Source: an uncultured Granulosicoccus sp.
Lineage (GTDB): Bacteria; Pseudomonadota; Gammaproteobacteria; Granulosicoccales; Granulosicoccaceae
Direction: 5' to 3'
DNA length: 64,000 nucleotides
NCBI GenBank assembly: GCA_937991945.1
Contig: CALKLO010000005.1
Span: 1-64,000 of the forward strand
In this document: positions 1,843-44,222 of the stretch, piece after piece
How positions within the stretch are numbered: the first letter of the stretch is position 1
How the letters are laid out: each line of letters opens with the position of its first letter
Made by a program: the position numbers and the translations under genes
The notes under the pieces: generated by a model
Seen by the model: only the letters and a program-made list of their open reading frames with translations
The model's database searches: none
Told to the model about the DNA's origin: nothing

Positions 1843-2262
1843 ATGGTTAAAGTTCAAAAAGGTTTTACACTAATCGAATTAATGATCGTTATTGCGATCA
1901 TCGGTATTTTGGCAGCAGTAGCTGTGCCTCAGTACTCGCAGTACACTAAGCGTGCTCGCTTTGCAGAAGTGGTAGTAGCTTCAGCCCCGATCAAGACGGG
2001 TATCGAAGTATGTGTTCAGACTGAATCTAGCATCGCTGAATGCAACTCTTTTGACGAAATCGGCGTACAGCAGCTGTCTGTTGTAGTTGGTGACGATGTT
2101 GACAACGCAGCAATCAACAACGCTGGTCGTATCACTATGACAGCTTCTGCTGACTTGAATGCAGCTACATACACATTAACACCAGACTACGACAACGATG
2201 ACAACACGTTGACTTGGGCTGTTGGTGGTACTTGCACAAACGCTGACACAAAGTATTGCTAA
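1843..2262 (+). CDS. pilA: Type IVa major pilin PilA (first of two)
   Basis: A 139-residue prepilin. The leader MVKVQKG ends at the prepilin peptidase site G|F, followed by [20 protein letters not shown], the hydrophobic N-terminal helix with Glu5 of the mature protein. Four cysteines remain in the globular part: two in the middle and a pair near the C-terminus (GTCTNADTKYC), consistent with disulfide-closed loops. The mature pilin of about 132 residues would be assembled by PilB/PilC and processed by PilD, all encoded downstream. It is preceded by a sigma-54 promoter and followed by a terminator, so it can be transcribed alone at a high level. The region after the helix is rich in Asp/Asn and small residues, as usual for pilins. 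Confidence 0.95.
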   Translation: MVKVQKGFTLIELMIVIAIIGILAAVAVPQYSQYTKRARFAEVVVASAPIKTGIEVCVQTESSIAECNSFDEIGVQQLSVVVGDDVDNAAINNAGRITMTASADLNAATYTLTPDYDNDDNTLTWAVGGTCTNADTKYC

Positions 2263-2330
2263 TACGTTATAAAGCTGGCTATCTGACTTAGTACTGAATT
2301 GATAGACCAACATTATAAATAGTTAAGTTT

Positions 2331-2358
2331 GGAGGGCTTTTTATAAGCCCTCCTTTCT
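2331..2358 (+). terminator. Rho-independent terminator between the two pilin genes
   Basis: A perfect 9-bp stem (GGAGGGCTT / AAGCCCTCC) with a 5-base loop is followed by TTTCT. It lies 68 bases after the pilA stop and ends about 30 bases before the second pilin, so it would stop or attenuate read-through from the pilA promoter. Confidence 0.8.
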
Positions 2359-2388
2359 AGTTTCTAAATCAGAGAGGTCGCCCTTTTC

Positions 2389-2820
2389 GTGAATAAACAG
2401 ACGAAAGGCTTTACGTTAATTGAGTTAATGATCGTGATTGCTATCATTGGCATATTGGCTTCTGTAGCAATCCCTATGTATGGTCATTATCTAAAACGTG
2501 CAAAATTTACGGAAATCCTTCTGGCATCCACGCCTGTCAAACGAGCAATCGAGAATTGTCTCACTGTAAAATTTGATACTTCAGCTTGTAACAGCTGGGC
2601 AGAAATAGGCATGACGGAAGCTCAGGTCATGTCTACTACCGACCTAATCGATACTATTTCGATCAACACCAGTAATGCAGCTTTTACGTTCACAGGTCAC
2701 TCAGAAGAACTCAATGGCGCTACCTACATATTGACTCCTTCATTCAATCAGAACACTAACATTCTTAGTTGGACTCACACCGGCACGTGCAAGACAGACG
2801 CTGCCAAGCGCTTCTGTTAA
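2389..2820 (+). CDS. Second type IV pilin
   Basis: A 143-residue prepilin with leader MNKQTKG, then [20 protein letters not shown], nearly the same processing site and helix as PilA. The start is GTG at 2389, with a purine-rich AGAGAGG about 10 bases upstream. The globular domain differs clearly from PilA but keeps the same four-cysteine plan (ENC, SAC, GTC, RFC). A terminator separates it from pilA and no sigma-54 promoter is visible in front of it, so it is probably expressed at a lower level or by read-through. It could be an alternative major pilin or a minor component of the same fibre; the sequence does not decide. Confidence 0.9.
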
Positions 2821-3001
2821 CACATAATCTATGTGTCAGAGCGCCTCAACTCACCGTTGACATTCGCTCATTCGAGTCTGACCAGTCCAGCTAAACGCTT
2901 GCGTTTACGGATACCTCTCAAGTGCTTCGTCTATCTGCCGCTTTACCCTTATAGACTTCTAAACCAGCTTAACCCCCTGGTGCTTCTTGTGAGACTCATA
3001 T

Positions 3002-4702
3002 ATGACGACTAATTCTTCACTCTCTGGAATTGCCCGACAGCTTGTTAATCAGGAGCTTATCGACGAGGCGACCGCCAAGGAGGCTTTAGCAACAGCACGC
3101 GAGACGGGTATCGAATTCATATCTGCCTTAGTAGGTACAGGTTCGGTTGATGCCAAAGCTATTGCTCAATATGTTGCTGCAGACTTCGGGCTCTCCTGCT
3201 TTGACTTGGATTCTCTGTCCATCCGAAGCGTGCCCAGAGATTACCTAAACGAAGAGCTGCTAAAAAGCCAAAATGCGGTACCCATTGCGAAGCGCGGGTC
3301 ACGCCTTTTTGTCGCTATCTCAGACCCTACAAATTCAGAGCCCTTAGATAAATATAAGTTCTCTTCTGGCTTGAGCGTGGAAGCGGTCATTGTTGAAGAA
3401 AACAAACTGGCCGAATTTAGAGCGAAAGTACAAGATCAAAGTGATGCTATCGGTGACGGCTTGGGCTCTAATTTTGATTTAGAAGTTGATGAATCAGAAC
3501 TCAAGGATGACGATGACGATGTGCCTTCGGATGAAGACGAGACTCCAGTAGTACGTTTTGTTAATAAAATTTTACTCGATGCAATAAAGCGTGGCGCATC
3601 GGATATACACGTTGAGCCCTACGAGAAAATATTCCGTATACGCTTTCGTATTGACGGTGTACTGGAGGAGGTCACTCATCCACCACTGGCAATGGCAGGC
3701 AGAATTACAGCACGTATCAAAGTCATGTCTCGCATGGACATCTCTGAACGACGAGTCCCTCAGGATGGTCGTATCAAGCTGAAGGTATCGAAAACACAGG
3801 CTATTGATTTTCGTGTCAACACCTGCCCTACTTTGTTTGGCGAGAAAACGGTAATGCGTATTCTTGATCCGAGCAGCGCGCAATTAGGTATCGATGCGCT
3901 GGGATATGAGCCAGAGCAAAAGAAACTCTACATGGATGCCTTGGCTAACCCCTACGGCATGATCCTAGTGACTGGGCCTACCGGTAGTGGTAAAACGGTC
4001 TCACTGTACACCGGTCTTAATATACTGAACGAGCCCGATACTAATATCTCTACAGCGGAGGATCCGGCGGAAATAAACTTAGCTGGAATCAATCAGGTTA
4101 ACGTAAACGCCAAAGCGGGCTTAACGTTCGCAGAAGCGTTGAAGTCATTCTTGCGCCAAGATCCGGACGTGATCATGGTGGGTGAGATACGTGACTTGGA
4201 AACTGCCAGCATCGCTGTTAAGGCCGCACAAACAGGACACATGGTTCTGTCAACGCTACACACCAATGATGCTCCACAGACATTGTCACGCCTGATAAAC
4301 ATGGGTGTTCCACCGTTTAATATTGCTACTGCCGTTTCGCTGATCATAGCTCAACGTTTAGGGCGACGGCTATGCAGCTCATGCAAAGTGATCGACACTG
4401 AAATCCCAAAGGACATATTAATATCAGAAGGGTTTTCTGAAGACATTGTCGACGAACTGGAAATTTACAAGCCTGTTGGTTGCCCAAAATGCAACCGCGG
4501 TTACAAAGGCCGCGTCGGTATCTACCAGGTGATGAAAATCTCTGAAGAGATTGGAAAGATAATCATGGCTGGCGGAAACGCAATTGAAATAGCACACCAA
4601 GCTAAACGCGAAAAAATTCCTGATCTTAGAGAGTCAGCTTTGAAGAAAGTTGCTCAAGGAGTCATGGGACTCGAAGAAGCCAACCGAGTAACCAAGGACT
4701 AG
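3002..4702 (+). CDS. pilB: PilB, type IV pilus extension ATPase
   Basis: A 566-residue cytoplasmic hexameric ATPase of the GspE/PilB family that powers pilus extension. Residues 1-150 form the MshEN-like N-terminal domain, followed by a very acidic linker (DDDDD) near residue 170. Walker A (GPTGSGKT) is near residue 324, Walker B (IMVGEIRD) near 390, and a tetracysteine zinc motif (CSSC ... CPKC) lies near 458-496; the last is typical of extension ATPases and absent from PilT. The length matches the family. The stop is three bases before pilC, implying co-transcription. The 181 bases before its start contain no clear promoter. Confidence 0.95.
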   Translation: MTTNSSLSGIARQLVNQELIDEATAKEALATARETGIEFISALVGTGSVDAKAIAQYVAADFGLSCFDLDSLSIRSVPRDYLNEELLKSQNAVPIAKRGSRLFVAISDPTNSEPLDKYKFSSGLSVEAVIVEENKLAEFRAKVQDQSDAIGDGLGSNFDLEVDESELKDDDDDVPSDEDETPVVRFVNKILLDAIKRGASDIHVEPYEKIFRIRFRIDGVLEEVTHPPLAMAGRITARIKVMSRMDISERRVPQDGRIKLKVSKTQAIDFRVNTCPTLFGEKTVMRILDPSSAQLGIDALGYEPEQKKLYMDALANPYGMILVTGPTGSGKTVSLYTGLNILNEPDTNISTAEDPAEINLAGINQVNVNAKAGLTFAEALKSFLRQDPDVIMVGEIRDLETASIAVKAAQTGHMVLSTLHTNDAPQTLSRLINMGVPPFNIATAVSLIIAQRLGRRLCSSCKVIDTEIPKDILISEGFSEDIVDELEIYKPVGCPKCNRGYKGRVGIYQVMKISEEIGKIIMAGGNAIEIAHQAKREKIPDLRESALKKVAQGVMGLEEANRVTKD

Positions 4703-4705
4703 ATC

Positions 4706-5929
4706 ATGGCTAAAGCAGCAGCAGTAAAAAACACCACCATTCTATTTGAATGGGAAGGTAAAACCAAAGCAGGAGCAAAACAAAAGGGCTACATATCTAG
4801 CCCCAATGCTGACTTGGTTAAAGCCAAACTTAGGCGCCAAGGCATCACTCCAACAAAGGTTCGTAAAAAACCTAGAGAGTTTGGTGGTAAACAGAAAATC
4901 GAAGCTGCGGATATCGCCATCTTCGCTCGACAGCTAACCACTATGATGGGCGCTGGTGTTCCAATGGTTCAATCTTTTGAGATTGTTGCCAATGGCATGG
5001 ACAATAAGTCTATGCGAGATATGGTCAACGGAATAAAAGCCGAAGTCGAATCAGGGAGTAACTTAACAAACGCTTTGCGGCAATACCCCGACCAGTTTGA
5101 TGAACTGTTCTGCAGTTTGACTGAAGCGGGCGAACAGTCAGGTACGTTAGAGACCTTACTGGGAGAAATTGCATCCTATAAAGAGAAATCGGAATCTCTT
5201 AAAAAGAAAATCAAAAAGGCAATGTTCTACCCCATTGCGGTATTGATCATTGCTTTGATTGTTACAGCGATATTACTCGTATTTGTTGTACCTCAGTTTG
5301 AAGCCTTGTTCTCAGGCATGGGTGGAGATCTACCCGCGTTTACTCAGATGATCGTTAATGCCTCAGAGTTTATGCAGGAGTGGTGGTACATTCTGTTTTT
5401 TGGTATCGCTGGAACCGTTTGGGTATTTGCTCAATTTAAAAAACGATCAAAACCATTCCGCGAACTACTGGACAGACTCGCACTGAAAGCACCCGTGTTT
5501 GGCGACATAGCAGTGAAAGCCGCGACCGCCCGTTTTTCACGCACACTTTCTACGATGTCAAAAGCTGGCGTACCATTGGTTGAAGCGATGGAATCGGTTG
5601 CGGGTGTAGCAGGAAACAGTGTGTTTGAAAAAGCGATTCATAAAATGAAAGACGAGGCGGCGACGGGTCAACGCTTGACGGTGTCCATTCAAAGCTCTGG
5701 ACTTTTCTCTAACATGGTGGTGCAAATGGTATCCATTGGCGAGGAGTCAGGTTCCATAGATGACATGCTCTCAAAAGTTGCTGACTACTACGAAGAAGAA
5801 GTCGACAACGCCGTTGATGCAATGACCTCACTCATGGAACCGATGATCATGGCCTTCTTGGGTGTTGTCATCGGTGGCTTGGTTGTCGGCATGTACTTAC
5901 CGATCTTCAAAATGGGCGATGCGTTCTAA
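4706..5929 (+). CDS. pilC: PilC, inner-membrane platform protein of type IV pili
   Basis: A 407-residue GspF/PilC family protein with the usual two repeated cytoplasmic domains, each containing a conserved stretch (FARQLTTMMGAGVPMVQSFE and FSRTLSTMSKAGVPLVEAME). Membrane segments lie near residues 171-193, 226-246 and 378-400. The protein couples the PilB and PilT motors to the growing pilus. It follows pilB by three bases. Length and organisation are normal for the family. Confidence 0.95.
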   Translation: MAKAAAVKNTTILFEWEGKTKAGAKQKGYISSPNADLVKAKLRRQGITPTKVRKKPREFGGKQKIEAADIAIFARQLTTMMGAGVPMVQSFEIVANGMDNKSMRDMVNGIKAEVESGSNLTNALRQYPDQFDELFCSLTEAGEQSGTLETLLGEIASYKEKSESLKKKIKKAMFYPIAVLIIALIVTAILLVFVVPQFEALFSGMGGDLPAFTQMIVNASEFMQEWWYILFFGIAGTVWVFAQFKKRSKPFRELLDRLALKAPVFGDIAVKAATARFSRTLSTMSKAGVPLVEAMESVAGVAGNSVFEKAIHKMKDEAATGQRLTVSIQSSGLFSNMVVQMVSIGEESGSIDDMLSKVADYYEEEVDNAVDAMTSLMEPMIMAFLGVVIGGLVVGMYLPIFKMGDAF

Positions 5930-6010: not shown

Positions 6011-6895
6011 ATGACACTACTCGATCTATTTTCGCAAAATGCTGCATTCTTCTACGGCATTGTTGCGCTTGTCAGCCTATTGGTTGGTAGCTTCCTGAAC
6101 GTTGTTATTCATCGCTTGCCAATCATGATGGAACGCGACTGGCGCGAAGGCTTGGAAGAGTTCAGCACCTCGGCAGACACAGAGTCGGAGCAATCCGATA
6201 CTGAGCCCGATGTATTTAACCTTGCTGTGCCACGTTCGCGATGCCCTTCGTGCAATCACGAAATAACCGCGATACAAAATATTCCCATCGTTAGCTATGC
6301 GGTGCTTAGAGGCAAGTGCGCTAACTGTAAAACACCTATTTCTGCCCGGTATCCTATCGTTGAATTTGTCACGATGATGCTGTCCTTGGTTGTTGCTTGG
6401 CAGTTTGGCCCGACACCACAAGCCGTGCTAGGTATCGTGACCACTTGGTTTTTGGTATCCATGACCATGATCGATTTTGATCACCAACTGTTACCAGACA
6501 CTCTCACGCTTCCACTCATGTGGATGGGGCTTCTAGCAGCCTTAATACCTGTTTTTGTCGATATCAATGCGTCGGTTATTGGTGCAGCCGCCGGTTATAT
6601 GGTCCTGTGGTGTGTCTACCAAGCCTTCAAGCTGATAACAGGCAAAGAGGGTATGGGCTACGGCGACTTCAAGCTACTGGCTGCCATTGGCGCACTATTG
6701 GGTTGGCAGGCACTGCCGGTCGTTATATTGTTATCGTCCTTAGTGGGAGCCGTTGTTGGTGTAGCCATTATTAGCATCACTGGCCGCGATAGAAACATAC
6801 CCATGCCGTTTGGTCCATTTTTAGCTGCCGCTGGCTGGATTGCTATGCTCTGGGGTGATTCAATGAGCAGCTGGTACTATAGCCTTTTAAGCTAA
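6011..6895 (+). CDS. pilD: PilD, prepilin peptidase and N-methyltransferase
   Basis: A 294-residue polytopic aspartic protease that cleaves prepilin leaders and methylates the new N-terminal Phe. The N-terminal cytoplasmic domain carries the two-CxxC zinc motif (C78, C81, C103, C106) that marks the bifunctional form. The catalytic aspartates lie in DFDHQLLPD (around residue 155-157) and GYGDFKLLA (D219). About eight hydrophobic segments are visible. Its substrates include the two pilins upstream. An acidic insert rich in Ser, Asp and Glu lies before the first CxxC (about residues 55-70). Confidence 0.95.
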   Translation: MTLLDLFSQNAAFFYGIVALVSLLVGSFLNVVIHRLPIMMERDWREGLEEFSTSADTESEQSDTEPDVFNLAVPRSRCPSCNHEITAIQNIPIVSYAVLRGKCANCKTPISARYPIVEFVTMMLSLVVAWQFGPTPQAVLGIVTTWFLVSMTMIDFDHQLLPDTLTLPLMWMGLLAALIPVFVDINASVIGAAAGYMVLWCVYQAFKLITGKEGMGYGDFKLLAAIGALLGWQALPVVILLSSLVGAVVGVAIISITGRDRNIPMPFGPFLAAAGWIAMLWGDSMSSWYYSLLS

Positions 6896-6907
6896 CTCAA
6901 CCCTCCT

Positions 6908-7513
6908 ATGCTACTAATAGGATTAACCGGTGGCATCGCCAGCGGTAAAACATTGGTATCCGATCACTTCGAAACACTCGGTGTTCCGATTATCGATGCG
7001 GATGTACTAGCGCGTGAAGTAGTCAAACCTGGCTCAACAGGTCTCCATGCATTAACACGCTACTTCACAACCGCCATACTAACGCCCAATGGTGAGTTAG
7101 ACAGGGCCGCATTGCGCCGCATTGTATTTGCCAACCCTTCGGACAGAACATTTTTAGACAACACCTTGCACCCTCTCATCAGAGAGCTGTCTGGCGAACG
7201 GATAGAAGCGGCTCGCAAGAACAATCATCCGTATGTAATTTACGCGGTTCCACTACTCATTGAAACCAGCCAGCAAGACCGGTTTGATCGTATTGTGGTT
7301 GTGGACGTCCCGCAGAGTACCCAACTAAGCCGCTTGTTGGCGCGTGACGAGTCCAACAAGACAGAGGCTGAAGCTATTCTTGCAGCACAAGCGAGTCGTG
7401 AGGATCGTTTGAAAATTGCTAATGACGTTATCGACAACACAGGCACTATAGAGAACACCTACGCGCAAGTGCAAACTCTGCATGAGTCATTCTTAACGCT
7501 GGCTAAGCGATAG
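6908..7513 (+). CDS. coaE: Dephospho-CoA kinase
   Basis: A 201-residue P-loop kinase that phosphorylates the ribose 3'-hydroxyl of dephospho-CoA, the last step of coenzyme A synthesis. Walker A is GLTGGIASGKT at the N-terminus, followed by the family's IIDADVLAREVV segment and a later RLLARD lid region. Length matches CoaE. It starts 12 bases after pilD, as in the pilD-coaE pair of Pseudomonas and many relatives. It converges with mutT. Confidence 0.95.
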   Translation: MLLIGLTGGIASGKTLVSDHFETLGVPIIDADVLAREVVKPGSTGLHALTRYFTTAILTPNGELDRAALRRIVFANPSDRTFLDNTLHPLIRELSGERIEAARKNNHPYVIYAVPLLIETSQQDRFDRIVVVDVPQSTQLSRLLARDESNKTEAEAILAAQASREDRLKIANDVIDNTGTIENTYAQVQTLHESFLTLAKR

Positions 7514-40106: not shown

Positions 40107-41279
40107 ATGATCAGGTTACTTTTCTTCATCGTGTGCATAGCCTTAGGGGTTATCACAGGCTGGTGGCTATCCTCTGGCCCCCTGCCCGTGGCAAACTTTG
40201 TCCACAACTTACCGTTCAGTACGAAACTGGGCTCCCAGACAGATTCACGGATCAGCCAAAACACGGTATCAACAGCCACGAGCACAGACCAGAACACAGA
40301 AAACGCGAGCATCAATAGCCCTGTTGTTCTGAGTTACCACGACGGCATCATGAAAGTGGCCCCATCGGTCATTAGCTTATTTGCCCGAGACACGGCCGAA
40401 GATCGACCCGTCAGCCAAGGCTCTGGGGTTATTGTTGACACCAACGGCATCATCTTGACGAATTTGCACCTTATTGATGGTCGCGACCTAATCACGGTAG
40501 TTCTCAGCGATGGCCGCAGATACTCAGGCCTTCTCATAGGCAGTGATCAAGAAACCGATCTGGCGGTCGTTCGAATTGCCGCGAAAAACCTACCCGCCCT
40601 CGAGCTAGACGAAGCAGACCCGTTGCGCGTCGGCGATGTGGTTTTGGCTATCGGCAACCCTTTTGGTGTTGGCCAAACCGTGACCCAGGGAATCGTCAGC
40701 GCAACACGCCGGCGAGTAGCAGGCGGTACGGTATGGCAAAACTTCATTCAAATCGATGCAGCGATAAATCCTGGTAATTCAGGTGGCGCACTCATCAATC
40801 CGATGGGGCAGCTGGTCGGCGTTAACACCGCCGTATTCAGAGGCGACTCCAGCGCAATGGGTATTGGCTTCTCTATACCGGCGGACCTACTAGCGCAGGT
40901 GGTTCCTCAGATCATTGAAAACGGCTCTGTCGCTCGAGGTTGGTTAGGCATCGGCGTAGACGACATCACGATGTTCCCTGTGTTGCGCCAACTAGAGTTT
41001 GAAGGCGCAGTCATTACCGCCGTCATCGACGACAGCCCCGCTAGCAAGGGCGGACTTAAACCAATGGATATCGTCGTACGTCTCGGTGAGCAACCTATCA
41101 CCAGCGCAACACAGCTTCTACTGCAAGTGTCGGCACTGCCGCCCGGGGCAACCGTAAAGCTAAGCATTTACCGTAGCCAAGCCAACCTGCTGACGGCTTC
41201 AAACCAAAACATCGAGCTGCAGGCGGTTGATCTGAAAATGAAGCTAGGCACAAGGCCGCAACTCAACAGCAAGCGCTAA
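40107..41279 (+). CDS. degS: DegS/AlgW-type membrane-anchored periplasmic serine protease
   Basis: A 390-residue HtrA-family protease. An N-terminal anchor (residues 2-22) is followed by about 55 polar residues, the trypsin-like domain and one PDZ domain. The catalytic triad is His in TNLHLIDG, Asp in ETDLAVVRI and Ser in NPGNSGGALIN. One PDZ (GWLGIGVDDI onward) plus a membrane anchor fits DegS/AlgW, which cleaves an anti-sigma factor on envelope stress, rather than two-PDZ DegP. Position between the pet genes and the hisG-murA block agrees with algW of Pseudomonas. Confidence 0.9.
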   Translation: MIRLLFFIVCIALGVITGWWLSSGPLPVANFVHNLPFSTKLGSQTDSRISQNTVSTATSTDQNTENASINSPVVLSYHDGIMKVAPSVISLFARDTAEDRPVSQGSGVIVDTNGIILTNLHLIDGRDLITVVLSDGRRYSGLLIGSDQETDLAVVRIAAKNLPALELDEADPLRVGDVVLAIGNPFGVGQTVTQGIVSATRRRVAGGTVWQNFIQIDAAINPGNSGGALINPMGQLVGVNTAVFRGDSSAMGIGFSIPADLLAQVVPQIIENGSVARGWLGIGVDDITMFPVLRQLEFEGAVITAVIDDSPASKGGLKPMDIVVRLGEQPITSATQLLLQVSALPPGATVKLSIYRSQANLLTASNQNIELQAVDLKMKLGTRPQLNSKR

Positions 41280-41298: not shown

Positions 41299-43545
41299 TC
41301 AGCGAATCCAGCTTTTGCTACGCCAGTTCTCTTGTTGACGTACCAATAAGAAAATCCAAAGTGCTAACCAAGACCATCCCAACGCGCCCGACGATTTAGC
41401 GGCACTAAGCGTGGAGTCACCATCGGCTGTTGTCTCAGAGGGCGTCAGTGAACTAATTGGCGGCTGACTACCGCTAATCAAATGCTGCGAGGATGCCCCA
41501 CCCTCAACGAGTACCGTTGCCAGATTATCTGACGAACGCAACTCAAGCAAACCGATAGGCGTCAGCTGTGCCGACACCGGAGAATCACTGTTAAGAAACG
41601 GCTCGTTAACGACAAACGAGATAGTCTGCTGAGAGCCTGGTTGAATGCCATCGATAAAGCACATGGCACTTGTCGGCGTTTGGACACGACAGCCTGCGGG
41701 CCACTCAACTTGGTCGGGACTACTTGTCTCAACTTCAAGCTGAGCATCCAGTGTTAACACGGCATCTGGATTCACAATATCGAAATTAACAACTGACCCG
41801 GTAGACGACGCATTCAATGATAAATCGACGCTATTGATTAAGCATTGCTTTGCATGAGATTGCAAAATACTCGCCTGACTGCACGAGGTAAATTCTGGAT
41901 CCGTGCTACTTGAAATATTGGGCCACATTAACGAGCTAGAGTTCGTATTGCACTCAGTGTCTGTATCGTGTTGCGCACCCAAAGAATGGCCAAGCTCGTG
42001 AGTGAGTAACACATCGCCAAAACGCGACGGTGTTGTCACACCCACATCGTATCCGTCGACTCTACACGCGGTATCAATCCAAGCCAGACCCAACGTCACA
42101 TCGGAGCGAGGGTTACCCGTGAACAAATAGGTTAACGCGCTGCTACCAAATAAGGTTTCGTATTGCAGACGATATTCTCTGAAGGTTCGGAGTATGGTTT
42201 CAAGAGTCACTCGACCTAGGTTCATAGGGTCGTCGTCTTCTCGAAGCGTCACCGCCTCATCCAACACTAGCGCCAAACCAAACTGTCGGTAGATACCATC
42301 AGCAACGTTCATGTTGTTGAGCGCTTCAACCAAGCCAGAACCTGCATAGTATCGGTTGTATTGGCTATCGATAACAATCGACACAGGCACTGCACGCACA
42401 TCGGTCTGCACGGTTCGCGAACGCGACTCTAGAGATTCCTGCAACTCTTCGGGAGGGGCAATTAACGCATCTATTCCGAGCACGCTATCCGCTAAATCAG
42501 ACGACATAGTTCGCGTACTGTCGTCTTCGCGAGTTCGTGGCTGGTAGTAATCTAACGTGCCAATTAAGTTGTCGGGTTGAACCTGATATTGCTTGCCGTT
42601 GATGAACACAGCCCCACTAATAGCACTTTGCTGCAACACAACTCTTACCCAACTATCATCGATGCCTTCAACCACTCCATCGTAAACACCAACTGATGGA
42701 GGCAGCTGATTGGACAAGTCACCATCCAACCATTGCGTTTGACGGGTCAATGGGCTGGGAACAAGCAACAGCTGCAAGTCGAGCCCGTTGACGTTAACAG
42801 ACACTCGCAGCTTTCCATCCGATTGCTTCTGGCGCGACCCAAGTCGACTAGCGGTGGTTACCCGCTCTTCAACAATAGCCAGTCGTCGATCAGCTCTATC
42901 AAACCAGTAACGCGATAAAACGGTGCCCTTGGGCCACCTAAACTCTAAAGGCAAATTCAACGCGGTATGCCTGTCACGAAGATCCATTAATAAGATTTTC
43001 GCTGCATCTGTATTGCCTAATTGCTCCAAGGCGATAGCTTCAAGATACTGCGCCGAATCCGTATAAGCAGACTCGGGAAAGCGCGACTCTAAGGTTCGCA
43101 AAGAAACGATAGCCTTAGCAAAATCATAGCGATCCATAACCTGAAGATAAGCAATGATGTACAAAGCATCATCGGTGAGTGTTCCCGCAGGATCAGCCGA
43201 TGCTATTGTTCCCAGCGACACTAAGGCTGCATCCATATCGCCGTCATCTCGCAGATTCAGTGCCGCTAGAAAGACCCTGAGCGATTCACCTGCATCAGCA
43301 GATTCCTGCAACACGGCCATGCGAGTTTGAACACCAGCAATTTTCGAAAACGACGGATAACGACTCTGCACTTGTCGCAAGTTCGCTAACGCTTGCGAAT
43401 AGTTCTGAGCCTCTATTTGTTCGAGCGCTAGTGAGTAGGCTCTCTCGGCAAGCATCTCATTTGCAGATTGAGACTGAGCTGACGCCGTCGATACAAACAA
43501 TGCCATTGCGACACCGCACAAGGCACGCTTAAACGAAGCATTCAC
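41299..43545 (-). CDS. Secreted reprolysin/ADAM-like (M12B) zinc metalloprotease with TPR-like repeats
   Basis: A 748-residue exported protein. Residues 1-24 are a signal peptide ending in ASAQ. Residues 30-190 are helical, TPR-like (AERAYSLALEQIEAQNYSQA). Residues about 245-335 resemble the M12B propeptide (VYDGVVEGIDDSWVRVVL, GAVFINGKQYQVQP). Residues 385-570 form a metzincin domain: zinc site HELGHSLGAQHD at 516-527, Met-turn SSLMWP with M540, and a C-terminal FTSCSQASI ... CLI pattern like ADAM proteases. Two beta-rich segments follow. The C-terminus (GALGWSWLALWIFLLVRQQ, then a basic tail) looks like a GlyGly-CTERM-type sorting signal. It follows the HAMP gene by 17 bases. Specific substrate unknown. 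Confidence 0.85.
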   Translation of the reverse strand: MNASFKRALCGVAMALFVSTASAQSQSANEMLAERAYSLALEQIEAQNYSQALANLRQVQSRYPSFSKIAGVQTRMAVLQESADAGESLRVFLAALNLRDDGDMDAALVSLGTIASADPAGTLTDDALYIIAYLQVMDRYDFAKAIVSLRTLESRFPESAYTDSAQYLEAIALEQLGNTDAAKILLMDLRDRHTALNLPLEFRWPKGTVLSRYWFDRADRRLAIVEERVTTASRLGSRQKQSDGKLRVSVNVNGLDLQLLLVPSPLTRQTQWLDGDLSNQLPPSVGVYDGVVEGIDDSWVRVVLQQSAISGAVFINGKQYQVQPDNLIGTLDYYQPRTREDDSTRTMSSDLADSVLGIDALIAPPEELQESLESRSRTVQTDVRAVPVSIVIDSQYNRYYAGSGLVEALNNMNVADGIYRQFGLALVLDEAVTLREDDDPMNLGRVTLETILRTFREYRLQYETLFGSSALTYLFTGNPRSDVTLGLAWIDTACRVDGYDVGVTTPSRFGDVLLTHELGHSLGAQHDTDTECNTNSSSLMWPNISSSTDPEFTSCSQASILQSHAKQCLINSVDLSLNASSTGSVVNFDIVNPDAVLTLDAQLEVETSSPDQVEWPAGCRVQTPTSAMCFIDGIQPGSQQTISFVVNEPFLNSDSPVSAQLTPIGLLELRSSDNLATVLVEGGASSQHLISGSQPPISSLTPSETTADGDSTLSAAKSSGALGWSWLALWIFLLVRQQENWRSKSWIR

Positions 43546-43562: not shown

Positions 43563-44222
43563 TTATCGTTTGCTTATTCGTCGCGTCTTTGCCCCTGCCG
43601 CATCCTTGAACGTATCGTTTTTAGCGCGTGAATCGCCATCGAAATAGGTCAATACTTCACGACATCCTACAAGCGCCTGCCGTATATCACTGTCTTCAGG
43701 GTTGGGCTGATCCTGCAGATTATCAAGCACCTTGGTGAGTTCTCGGGCCTCAGTGATTTTCCCATCGACTTGATCCAATGCACGGTTAAGTGCCACGCAC
43801 AACTCATTGAACTCTTGGCTATCCTCAGTACGCAAGCGCACATCAAGGTTACCATCGCCAATTTCGTTCAAAGCACGTTTGATCGCCAGGATGGGATTGC
43901 CCAATTTACGCAGCACGTAAACCGCAATACTACCGGTGACGAGACCATTAATAGCCAACATGGCGACTAACCACCAACCCAGAACGCTACTCATGGACGG
44001 TATGGCATCGCCTAACCCGCCCATATCTTCGGAAGCAAACAGTAACGGCGCATTGCCTGCGACTAAATTACCTAAGAAGCTGTAATAGAAAACACCCAGC
44101 ACGATCGTTGACTGAACAATGAAGAATCCAGTCATTATCATGATCCGACGAATCAACCGAAGCTGGAATGCCTTGTCAGTGAATAATGACTTTGGAAACG
44201 AAGCGTCAGAAGAACGCGCCAT
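43563..44222 (-). CDS. HAMP-domain membrane protein without an output domain
   Basis: A 219-residue protein with two membrane segments (about residues 28-52 and 82-103) separated by a short periplasmic loop. A HAMP-like linker follows (about 105-160: VLRKLGNPILAIKRALNEIG, then GDGNLDVRLRTEDSQEF). The remaining 60 residues are polar, partly coiled-coil, with a basic end. There is no kinase, cyclase or methyl-accepting domain, so it cannot signal alone in the usual way. It is the upstream partner of the metalloprotease and probably co-transcribed. Function unknown. Confidence 0.75.
   Translation of the reverse strand: MARSSDASFPKSLFTDKAFQLRLIRRIMIMTGFFIVQSTIVLGVFYYSFLGNLVAGNAPLLFASEDMGGLGDAIPSMSSVLGWWLVAMLAINGLVTGSIAVYVLRKLGNPILAIKRALNEIGDGNLDVRLRTEDSQEFNELCVALNRALDQVDGKITEARELTKVLDNLQDQPNPEDSDIRQALVGCREVLTYFDGDSRAKNDTFKDAAGAKTRRISKR

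Follow-up and report, generated by a model that had tools for sequence, protein, structure and literature searches.

A putative exported M12B metalloprotease of Granulosicoccus with a TPR domain, a probable ADAM-like prodomain and a GlyGly-CTERM-like tail

We analyzed a 64,000-nucleotide stretch of DNA from an uncultured Granulosicoccus sp. (hereafter the window), which encodes an M12B metalloprotease with an N-terminal TPR domain. Our computational analysis identified the domains of this protein, an intact catalytic site, a conserved HAMP/TPR pair, and sorting and secretion genes in the same genome. The best explanation, which we hold to be fairly probable, is that of an exported M12B protease that would be made as an ADAM-like zymogen, docked to the HAMP protein, and sorted to the cell surface. 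The signal peptide would direct the precursor into the periplasm, where the TPR domain would hold or present it through contact with its operon partner, the inner-membrane HAMP protein. Folding and latency of the catalytic domain would be maintained by the short, cysteine-free prodomain, with activation by a cut in the basic linker at residues ~373-384. The Gly/Ser-hydrophobic-basic tail would be cut off by rhombosortase. The type II system would deliver the protease to the outer face of the cell, where it might digest proteins from its marine or algal surroundings.

The gene and its orthologs

The gene is an intact minus-strand reading frame of 748 codons with a GTG start preceded by AAGGGG, and the plus strand contains stops throughout this region (Table 1). 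An earlier note, made from the sequence alone, had placed the gene correctly without naming the strand. Near- or full-length orthologs were found in nearly all genomes of the same genus that were searched, with up to 83% identity (Granulosicoccus sp. MAG-44, the nearest named relative), which puts the TPR-M12B gene far beyond chance. For G. antarcticus, an isolate genome is available (PMC9238374). The proposed signal peptide, MNASFKRALCGVAMALFVSTASA, was read by eye and agrees with the hydrophobic leaders at the N-termini of the orthologs; it comprises residues 1-23, with predicted cleavage between ASA and Q. The assumption of a single-family distribution had to be rejected, since TPR-M12B fusions also occur outside the Granulosicoccus family, in the families f52 and f61.

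Table 1. Positions of the gene, its domains and associated genes (window coordinates unless a locus is named)
Feature	Coordinates	Strand	Residues	Evidence
Gene for TPR/putative ADAM-type prodomain/M12B/GlyGly-CTERM-like protein	41299..43545	-	748 aa	near- and full-length orthologs
Predicted signal peptide	43477..43545	-	1-23	sequence reading, ortholog leaders
TPR domain	42871..43455	-	31-225	TPR_6, YbgF/BamD NCBIfam, Foldseek 2xev
Putative ADAM-type prodomain	42541..42813	-	~245-335	ADAM17 profile match, Foldseek; without Pfam propeptide match
Linker	42397..42540	-	336-383	paired basic residues in 18/29
M12B catalytic domain	41830..42396	-	384-572	Reprolysin 54.2 vs 20.8, venom structures E 1.3e-19
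Zinc-binding motif HELGHSLGAQHD	41965..42000	-	516-527	ligands invariant in 29/29
Met-turn methionine	41926..41928	-	M540	29/29 orthologs
C-terminal beta-sandwich, DUF11-like	41476..41829	-	573-~690	model strands, DUF11 in 3/29
GlyGly-CTERM-like tail SSGALGWSWLALWIFLLVRQQENWRSKSWIR	41302..41394	-	718-748	tripartite in orthologs, two pass TIGR03501
HAMP partner gene	43563..44222	-		17 bp upstream; HAMP 31.6 bits; 28/29 loci and f52
DegS/DegQ-type trypsin-like protease with PDZ, convergent	40107..41279	+		conserved neighbor; not claimed as functional partner
Second HAMP gene and choice-of-anchor-D/TPR probable lipoprotein	L055:5811-6908 and 6823-7458, contig C123	-		

The catalytic domain belongs to M12B

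In Pfam profile searches, the catalytic domain matched Reprolysin (PF01421) with 54.2 bits against a cut-off of 20.8. Reprolysin_2, _3, _4, and _5 likewise exceeded their cut-offs, and a Reprolysin profile match was obtained in 29/29 orthologs. The best solved structures were snake-venom M12B proteases, both for the single sequence (E 6.5e-10) and for the family profile run against PDB sequences (E 1.3e-19, crystal structures). Residues H516, E517, H520, H526, and D527 of the zinc-binding motif and the Met-turn M540 are identical in 29/29 orthologs, as are C494, C532, C555, and C568, which align with the cysteines of the venom proteases. The motif, the Met-turn and the ADAM-like cysteines claimed in the earlier note therefore hold residue by residue. 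The M domain of M12B proteases has two or more disulfides (PMC4885070); the four invariant cysteines could form two. The profile match, HEXXHXXGXXHD with Met-turn, and the cysteine set expected for MEROPS M12B are all present in the window protein. As judged by its sequence, the catalytic domain is a member of M12B.

It is very improbable that the domain represents another metzincin (pappalysin, astacin, serralysin, or fragilysin) that merely resembles M12B. The M43, M10, and astacin models did give weak matches, and fragilysin as well, but all of these were sub-threshold, whereas all five reprolysin models scored above their cut-offs, in line with the metzincin comparison suggested earlier. 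Moreover, the PDB matches were M12B proteins, and the M12B cysteine pattern and the putative ADAM-type prodomain described below also argue against another family. M12B matches had been expected over residues 245-570; they were obtained for 384-572, and the remainder is occupied by the putative prodomain (~245-335) and the linker (336-383).

The notion that M12B is rare in bacteria was not upheld, and the statement that such proteases are mainly known from animals and snake venoms needs qualification: in a sample of 249 genomes from the phylum, Reprolysin_5 exceeded its cut-off in 43. The window genome itself harbors a further M12B paralog without TPR domain (L054:5337-6986, contig C20), in which a segment resembling the prodomain, HEIAHNLGAVHD and a tail of the GlyGly type are present. 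Shorter copies resembling this paralog are present in many relatives.

A putative ADAM-type prodomain and a basic linker

A profile of residues ~245-335, built from 19 divergent family members (A3), displays an invariant G, SW.R, G pattern. Its best match among 177,635 distinct PDB sequences was the ADAM17 propeptide (E 0.0046, ~90 positions); the next four chains were also ADAM17 and count with it as one finding, not five. Structure models were calculated from an alignment of five sequences. From the first model, of the whole protein, we took only the TPR and beta domains, because the catalytic domain had a pLDDT of about 25. The second model, of the prodomain and the catalytic domain, was of low confidence (mean 46); with this low-confidence model, the top four Foldseek matches were ADAM17 zymogen entries (best E 3.5e-6, 235-307 columns). 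Because the sequence profile and Foldseek agree and the position within the protein fits, the best reading of this segment is that of an ADAM-type prodomain, which is marginal by sequence. The propeptide-like segment of the earlier note thus gained the ADAM17 matches, but it did not match the Pfam propeptide model: Pep_M12B_propep (PF01562) gave no match in the window protein, its genome or any family segment, nor did residues ~245-335 match any Pfam family.

Residues 226-383 are free of cysteines in all 29 orthologs, and the cysteine switch of the ADAM subfamily is absent from the prodomain. Therefore, latency, if present, would not be exerted by a cysteine switch. The linker contains a cluster of paired basic residues just ahead of the catalytic domain (SRSR in the window protein), which is found in 18/29 orthologs and missing from 11/29. 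Presumably, this cluster is the maturation site, at which the precursor would be cleaved.

The window protein resembles ADAM17, ADAM10, and the P-I snake-venom M12B proteases in its prodomain-like beta segment directly preceding the M12B domain, the HEXXHXXGXXHD motif, the Met-turn, and the paired cysteines. It differs from the ADAMs in the length of the prodomain (about 90 residues compared to about 200; PMC4885070), the cysteine-free pro-region and the additional N-terminal TPR domain, and a GlyGly-type tail takes the place of the permanent transmembrane anchor. Profile searches detected no disintegrin or cysteine-rich domain after the catalytic domain. Hence, the zymogen layout of ADAMs, an ADAM-type prodomain followed by M12B, is indicated in bacteria too, and such a protein could serve as a small, tractable comparator for prodomain function without a cysteine switch.

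The C-terminal region and proposed surface sorting

The catalytic domain is followed by a predicted beta-sandwich that the earlier note did not contain. Its strands reach pLDDT values of ~70-78 over much of the region, C619 and C629 are invariant in the 29 orthologs, and DUF11 matched in three of the 29 family members (best E 0.0023).

The hydrophobic-plus-basic tail described previously was recovered in the window protein. In most of the 29 orthologs, the tail is tripartite, with a Gly/Ser motif, a hydrophobic stretch, and basic residues. TIGR03501, the model for GlyGly-CTERM (defined in PMC3237569), did not match the window protein's own tail, but two ortholog tails passed its cut-off of 15.5 with 16.4 and 17.4 bits. 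Tails of a similar SSG/SGALG type occur elsewhere in the same genome (SSGAMAGWSMILLSLVFGIRR, SGALGLFALLALMGISGVR). The genome also encodes a rhombosortase (TIGR03902, 146.8 bits, cut-off 84) and the type II secretin GspD (606.6 bits). Of 28 genomes tested that carry the fused gene, 27 have a rhombosortase above the cut-off; its presence discriminates only weakly, because it is common in the class (8/16 genomes of other families). Taken together, the tail is GlyGly-CTERM-like by sequence and probably marks the protease for the cell surface, where it would be anchored.

Alternatively, the tail could be a plain inner-membrane anchor, and the protease would remain periplasmic and act on envelope proteins, perhaps with the DegS-like neighbor, without ever being displayed. 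The missing TIGR03501 match, the little net positive charge of some ortholog tails, and the DegS-like and HAMP neighbors, which hint at envelope control, are in agreement with such a role. Against a plain anchor, nearly all orthologs have a Gly/Ser motif immediately ahead of the hydrophobic stretch, and the two tails above the GlyGly-CTERM cut-off, the typical GlyGly-type tail of the TPR-less paralog, and the further tails of this kind in the genome also argue for sorting. We therefore regard a plain anchor as rather unlikely.

Processing in the GlyGly-CTERM/rhombosortase system comprises cleavage of the tail, addition of a glycerophosphoethanolamine-containing group and placement at the surface. 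Exported proteases with such tails are known from Vibrio cholerae. In VesB, the rhombosortase cut exposes the second glycine, which is then modified before surface display by the type II system (PMC6219818). VesB and the other GlyGly-CTERM substrates of V. cholerae share with the window protein the export, the Gly/Ser, hydrophobic, and basic tail, and a genome with rhombosortase and type II secretion (PMC6219818). VesB is a serine protease, and we found no mention of a TPR domain or an ADAM prodomain for it (PMC6219818). The curated NCBIfam family NF038115 ('SVAGG family GlyGly-CTERM protein') gave a weak match to the catalytic region of each of the 29 orthologs. In the window protein, this match was restricted to residues 485-575 (20.4 bits, cut-off 150), and no TPR domain is indicated in NF038115.

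The TPR domain and its putative HAMP partner

By profile and predicted fold, residues 31-225 form a TPR domain resembling those of YbgF and BamD, in agreement with the TPR-like repeats first noticed near the N-terminus. TPR_6 scored 31.9 bits over residues 126-159 (cut-off 26.3) and matched in all 29 orthologs, the best NCBIfam matches were YbgF and BamD, with scores far below the curated cut-offs, and Foldseek matched the model to the YbgF TPR structure 2xev (TM (TMt) 0.83, rmsd 2.9). YbgF/CpoB and BamD are the closest TPR families by profile and fold; unlike in these, the TPR domain is here fused to a putative protease zymogen and paired with HAMP.

The HAMP gene ends 17 bp ahead of the protease start. 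It encodes a membrane protein of 219 amino acids, composed of two hydrophobic segments, a HAMP domain (31.6 bits, cut-off 25), and a short helical tail; profile searches recognized no output domain of the kinase or chemotaxis type in it. The gene is located upstream of the protease gene in 28 of 29 testable orthologous loci and in all three f52 genomes, and the conserved gene order is aroG-HAMP-protease-(DegS-like, convergent)-petABC. Among 229 genomes sampled from the class, only the window genome and two f52 genomes contained HAMP homologs of near full length (~40% identity), and all three carry a TPR-M12B gene.

The convergent DegS/DegQ-like gene beside the M12B gene is retained in almost all relatives. 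Unrelated genomes of the same class also encode short HAMP proteins that have two hydrophobic segments but lack an output domain (L096:1300-1893 and L100:1492-2019). These proteins have a similar N-terminal K.FQ motif, and one adjoins a pilin-like gene; no TPR neighbor was seen for either.

A second HAMP/TPR pair without protease is encoded in the window genome (G000:C123). Here, a HAMP paralog (42-43% identity) is followed by a probable lipoprotein, in which a choice-of-anchor-D domain (43.0 bits, just under the cut-off of 45) is combined with a TPR domain that is 40% identical to that of the protease. Gene order is the same in both pairs; the lipoprotein differs from the window protein by the Ig-like domain before the TPR, the likely lipoprotein signal, and the lack of a protease. 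This second pair is intact in 17/17 testable loci of the family. The TPR tree separates proteins 'with protease' from those 'with choice-of-anchor-D' on one branch (support 100/98), and the HAMP tree splits by the same partner types with weak support (87/67). In the catalytic-domain tree, the fused proteins are placed on one side (98/93). The rooted tree places ASH-TPR inside the M12B group, and a single M12B-TPR clade was not rejected (p-AU 0.237). A further such pair is found in f194, another family of the phylum: its HAMP protein (24% identity over 194 residues, pairwise E 3e-23) is encoded directly before a TPR protein of the same type (profile E ~1e-36), whose C-terminal region comprises ~500 residues.

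These data also bear on the question of whether the TPR domain could instead be part of the mature enzyme, as a substrate-binding or dimerizing arm, with the HAMP gene as an operon neighbor without contact. TPR domains commonly bind peptides, and in other genera of the family, three loci (L052, L053, and L063) encode the fused protein with no HAMP gene nearby, so that the HAMP partner is not indispensable. But the same TPR type stands beside the same HAMP family in the protease-free operon and, with other cargo, in f194, and the constant association is therefore TPR-HAMP rather than TPR-protease. Furthermore, a cut before residue 384 would remove the TPR domain, which precedes the prodomain. 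For these reasons, we consider an arm of the mature enzyme doubtful and prefer docking of the precursor to the HAMP protein.

A possible exchangeable HAMP/TPR module

Bacterial M12B proteins were already known, and so was NF038115 as a curated GlyGly-CTERM family. Apparently new, as far as we found, are the fusion with a TPR domain, the HAMP/TPR pair, and the occurrence of an ADAM17-like prodomain in an M12B protein from a bacterium. Among the titles and abstracts listed, our literature search returned nothing relevant on HAMP+TPR pairs or bacterial ADAM prodomains; with subscription papers mostly outside its scope, this is weak evidence. In the window protein, known parts are combined in a new way, and the enzyme as such is not of a new kind.

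Because the second HAMP/TPR pair does without a protease and the f194 TPR is joined to an unrelated domain, HAMP plus TPR appears to be the constant element, with the TPR protein as the exchangeable half and the protease as one cargo. We tentatively suggest that the pair might be an undescribed two-gene envelope module for interchangeable exported cargo (an ADAM-like zymogen, an Ig-like choice-of-anchor-D domain, or the ~500-residue f194 domain), in which conformational signaling by HAMP would control retention or activation of the cargo. Such a module, speculative as it is, would allow a bacterium to gate an ADAM-type protease across its inner membrane.

In f194, the TPR protein is present in L134, with the HAMP gene ahead of it (1970-4504 and 4508-5134), and in L131, where no HAMP gene precedes it. 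Its conserved ~500-residue C-terminal region had no Pfam match; from the motifs EPEFNK and LGNW, a TIM-barrel hydrolase can be guessed.
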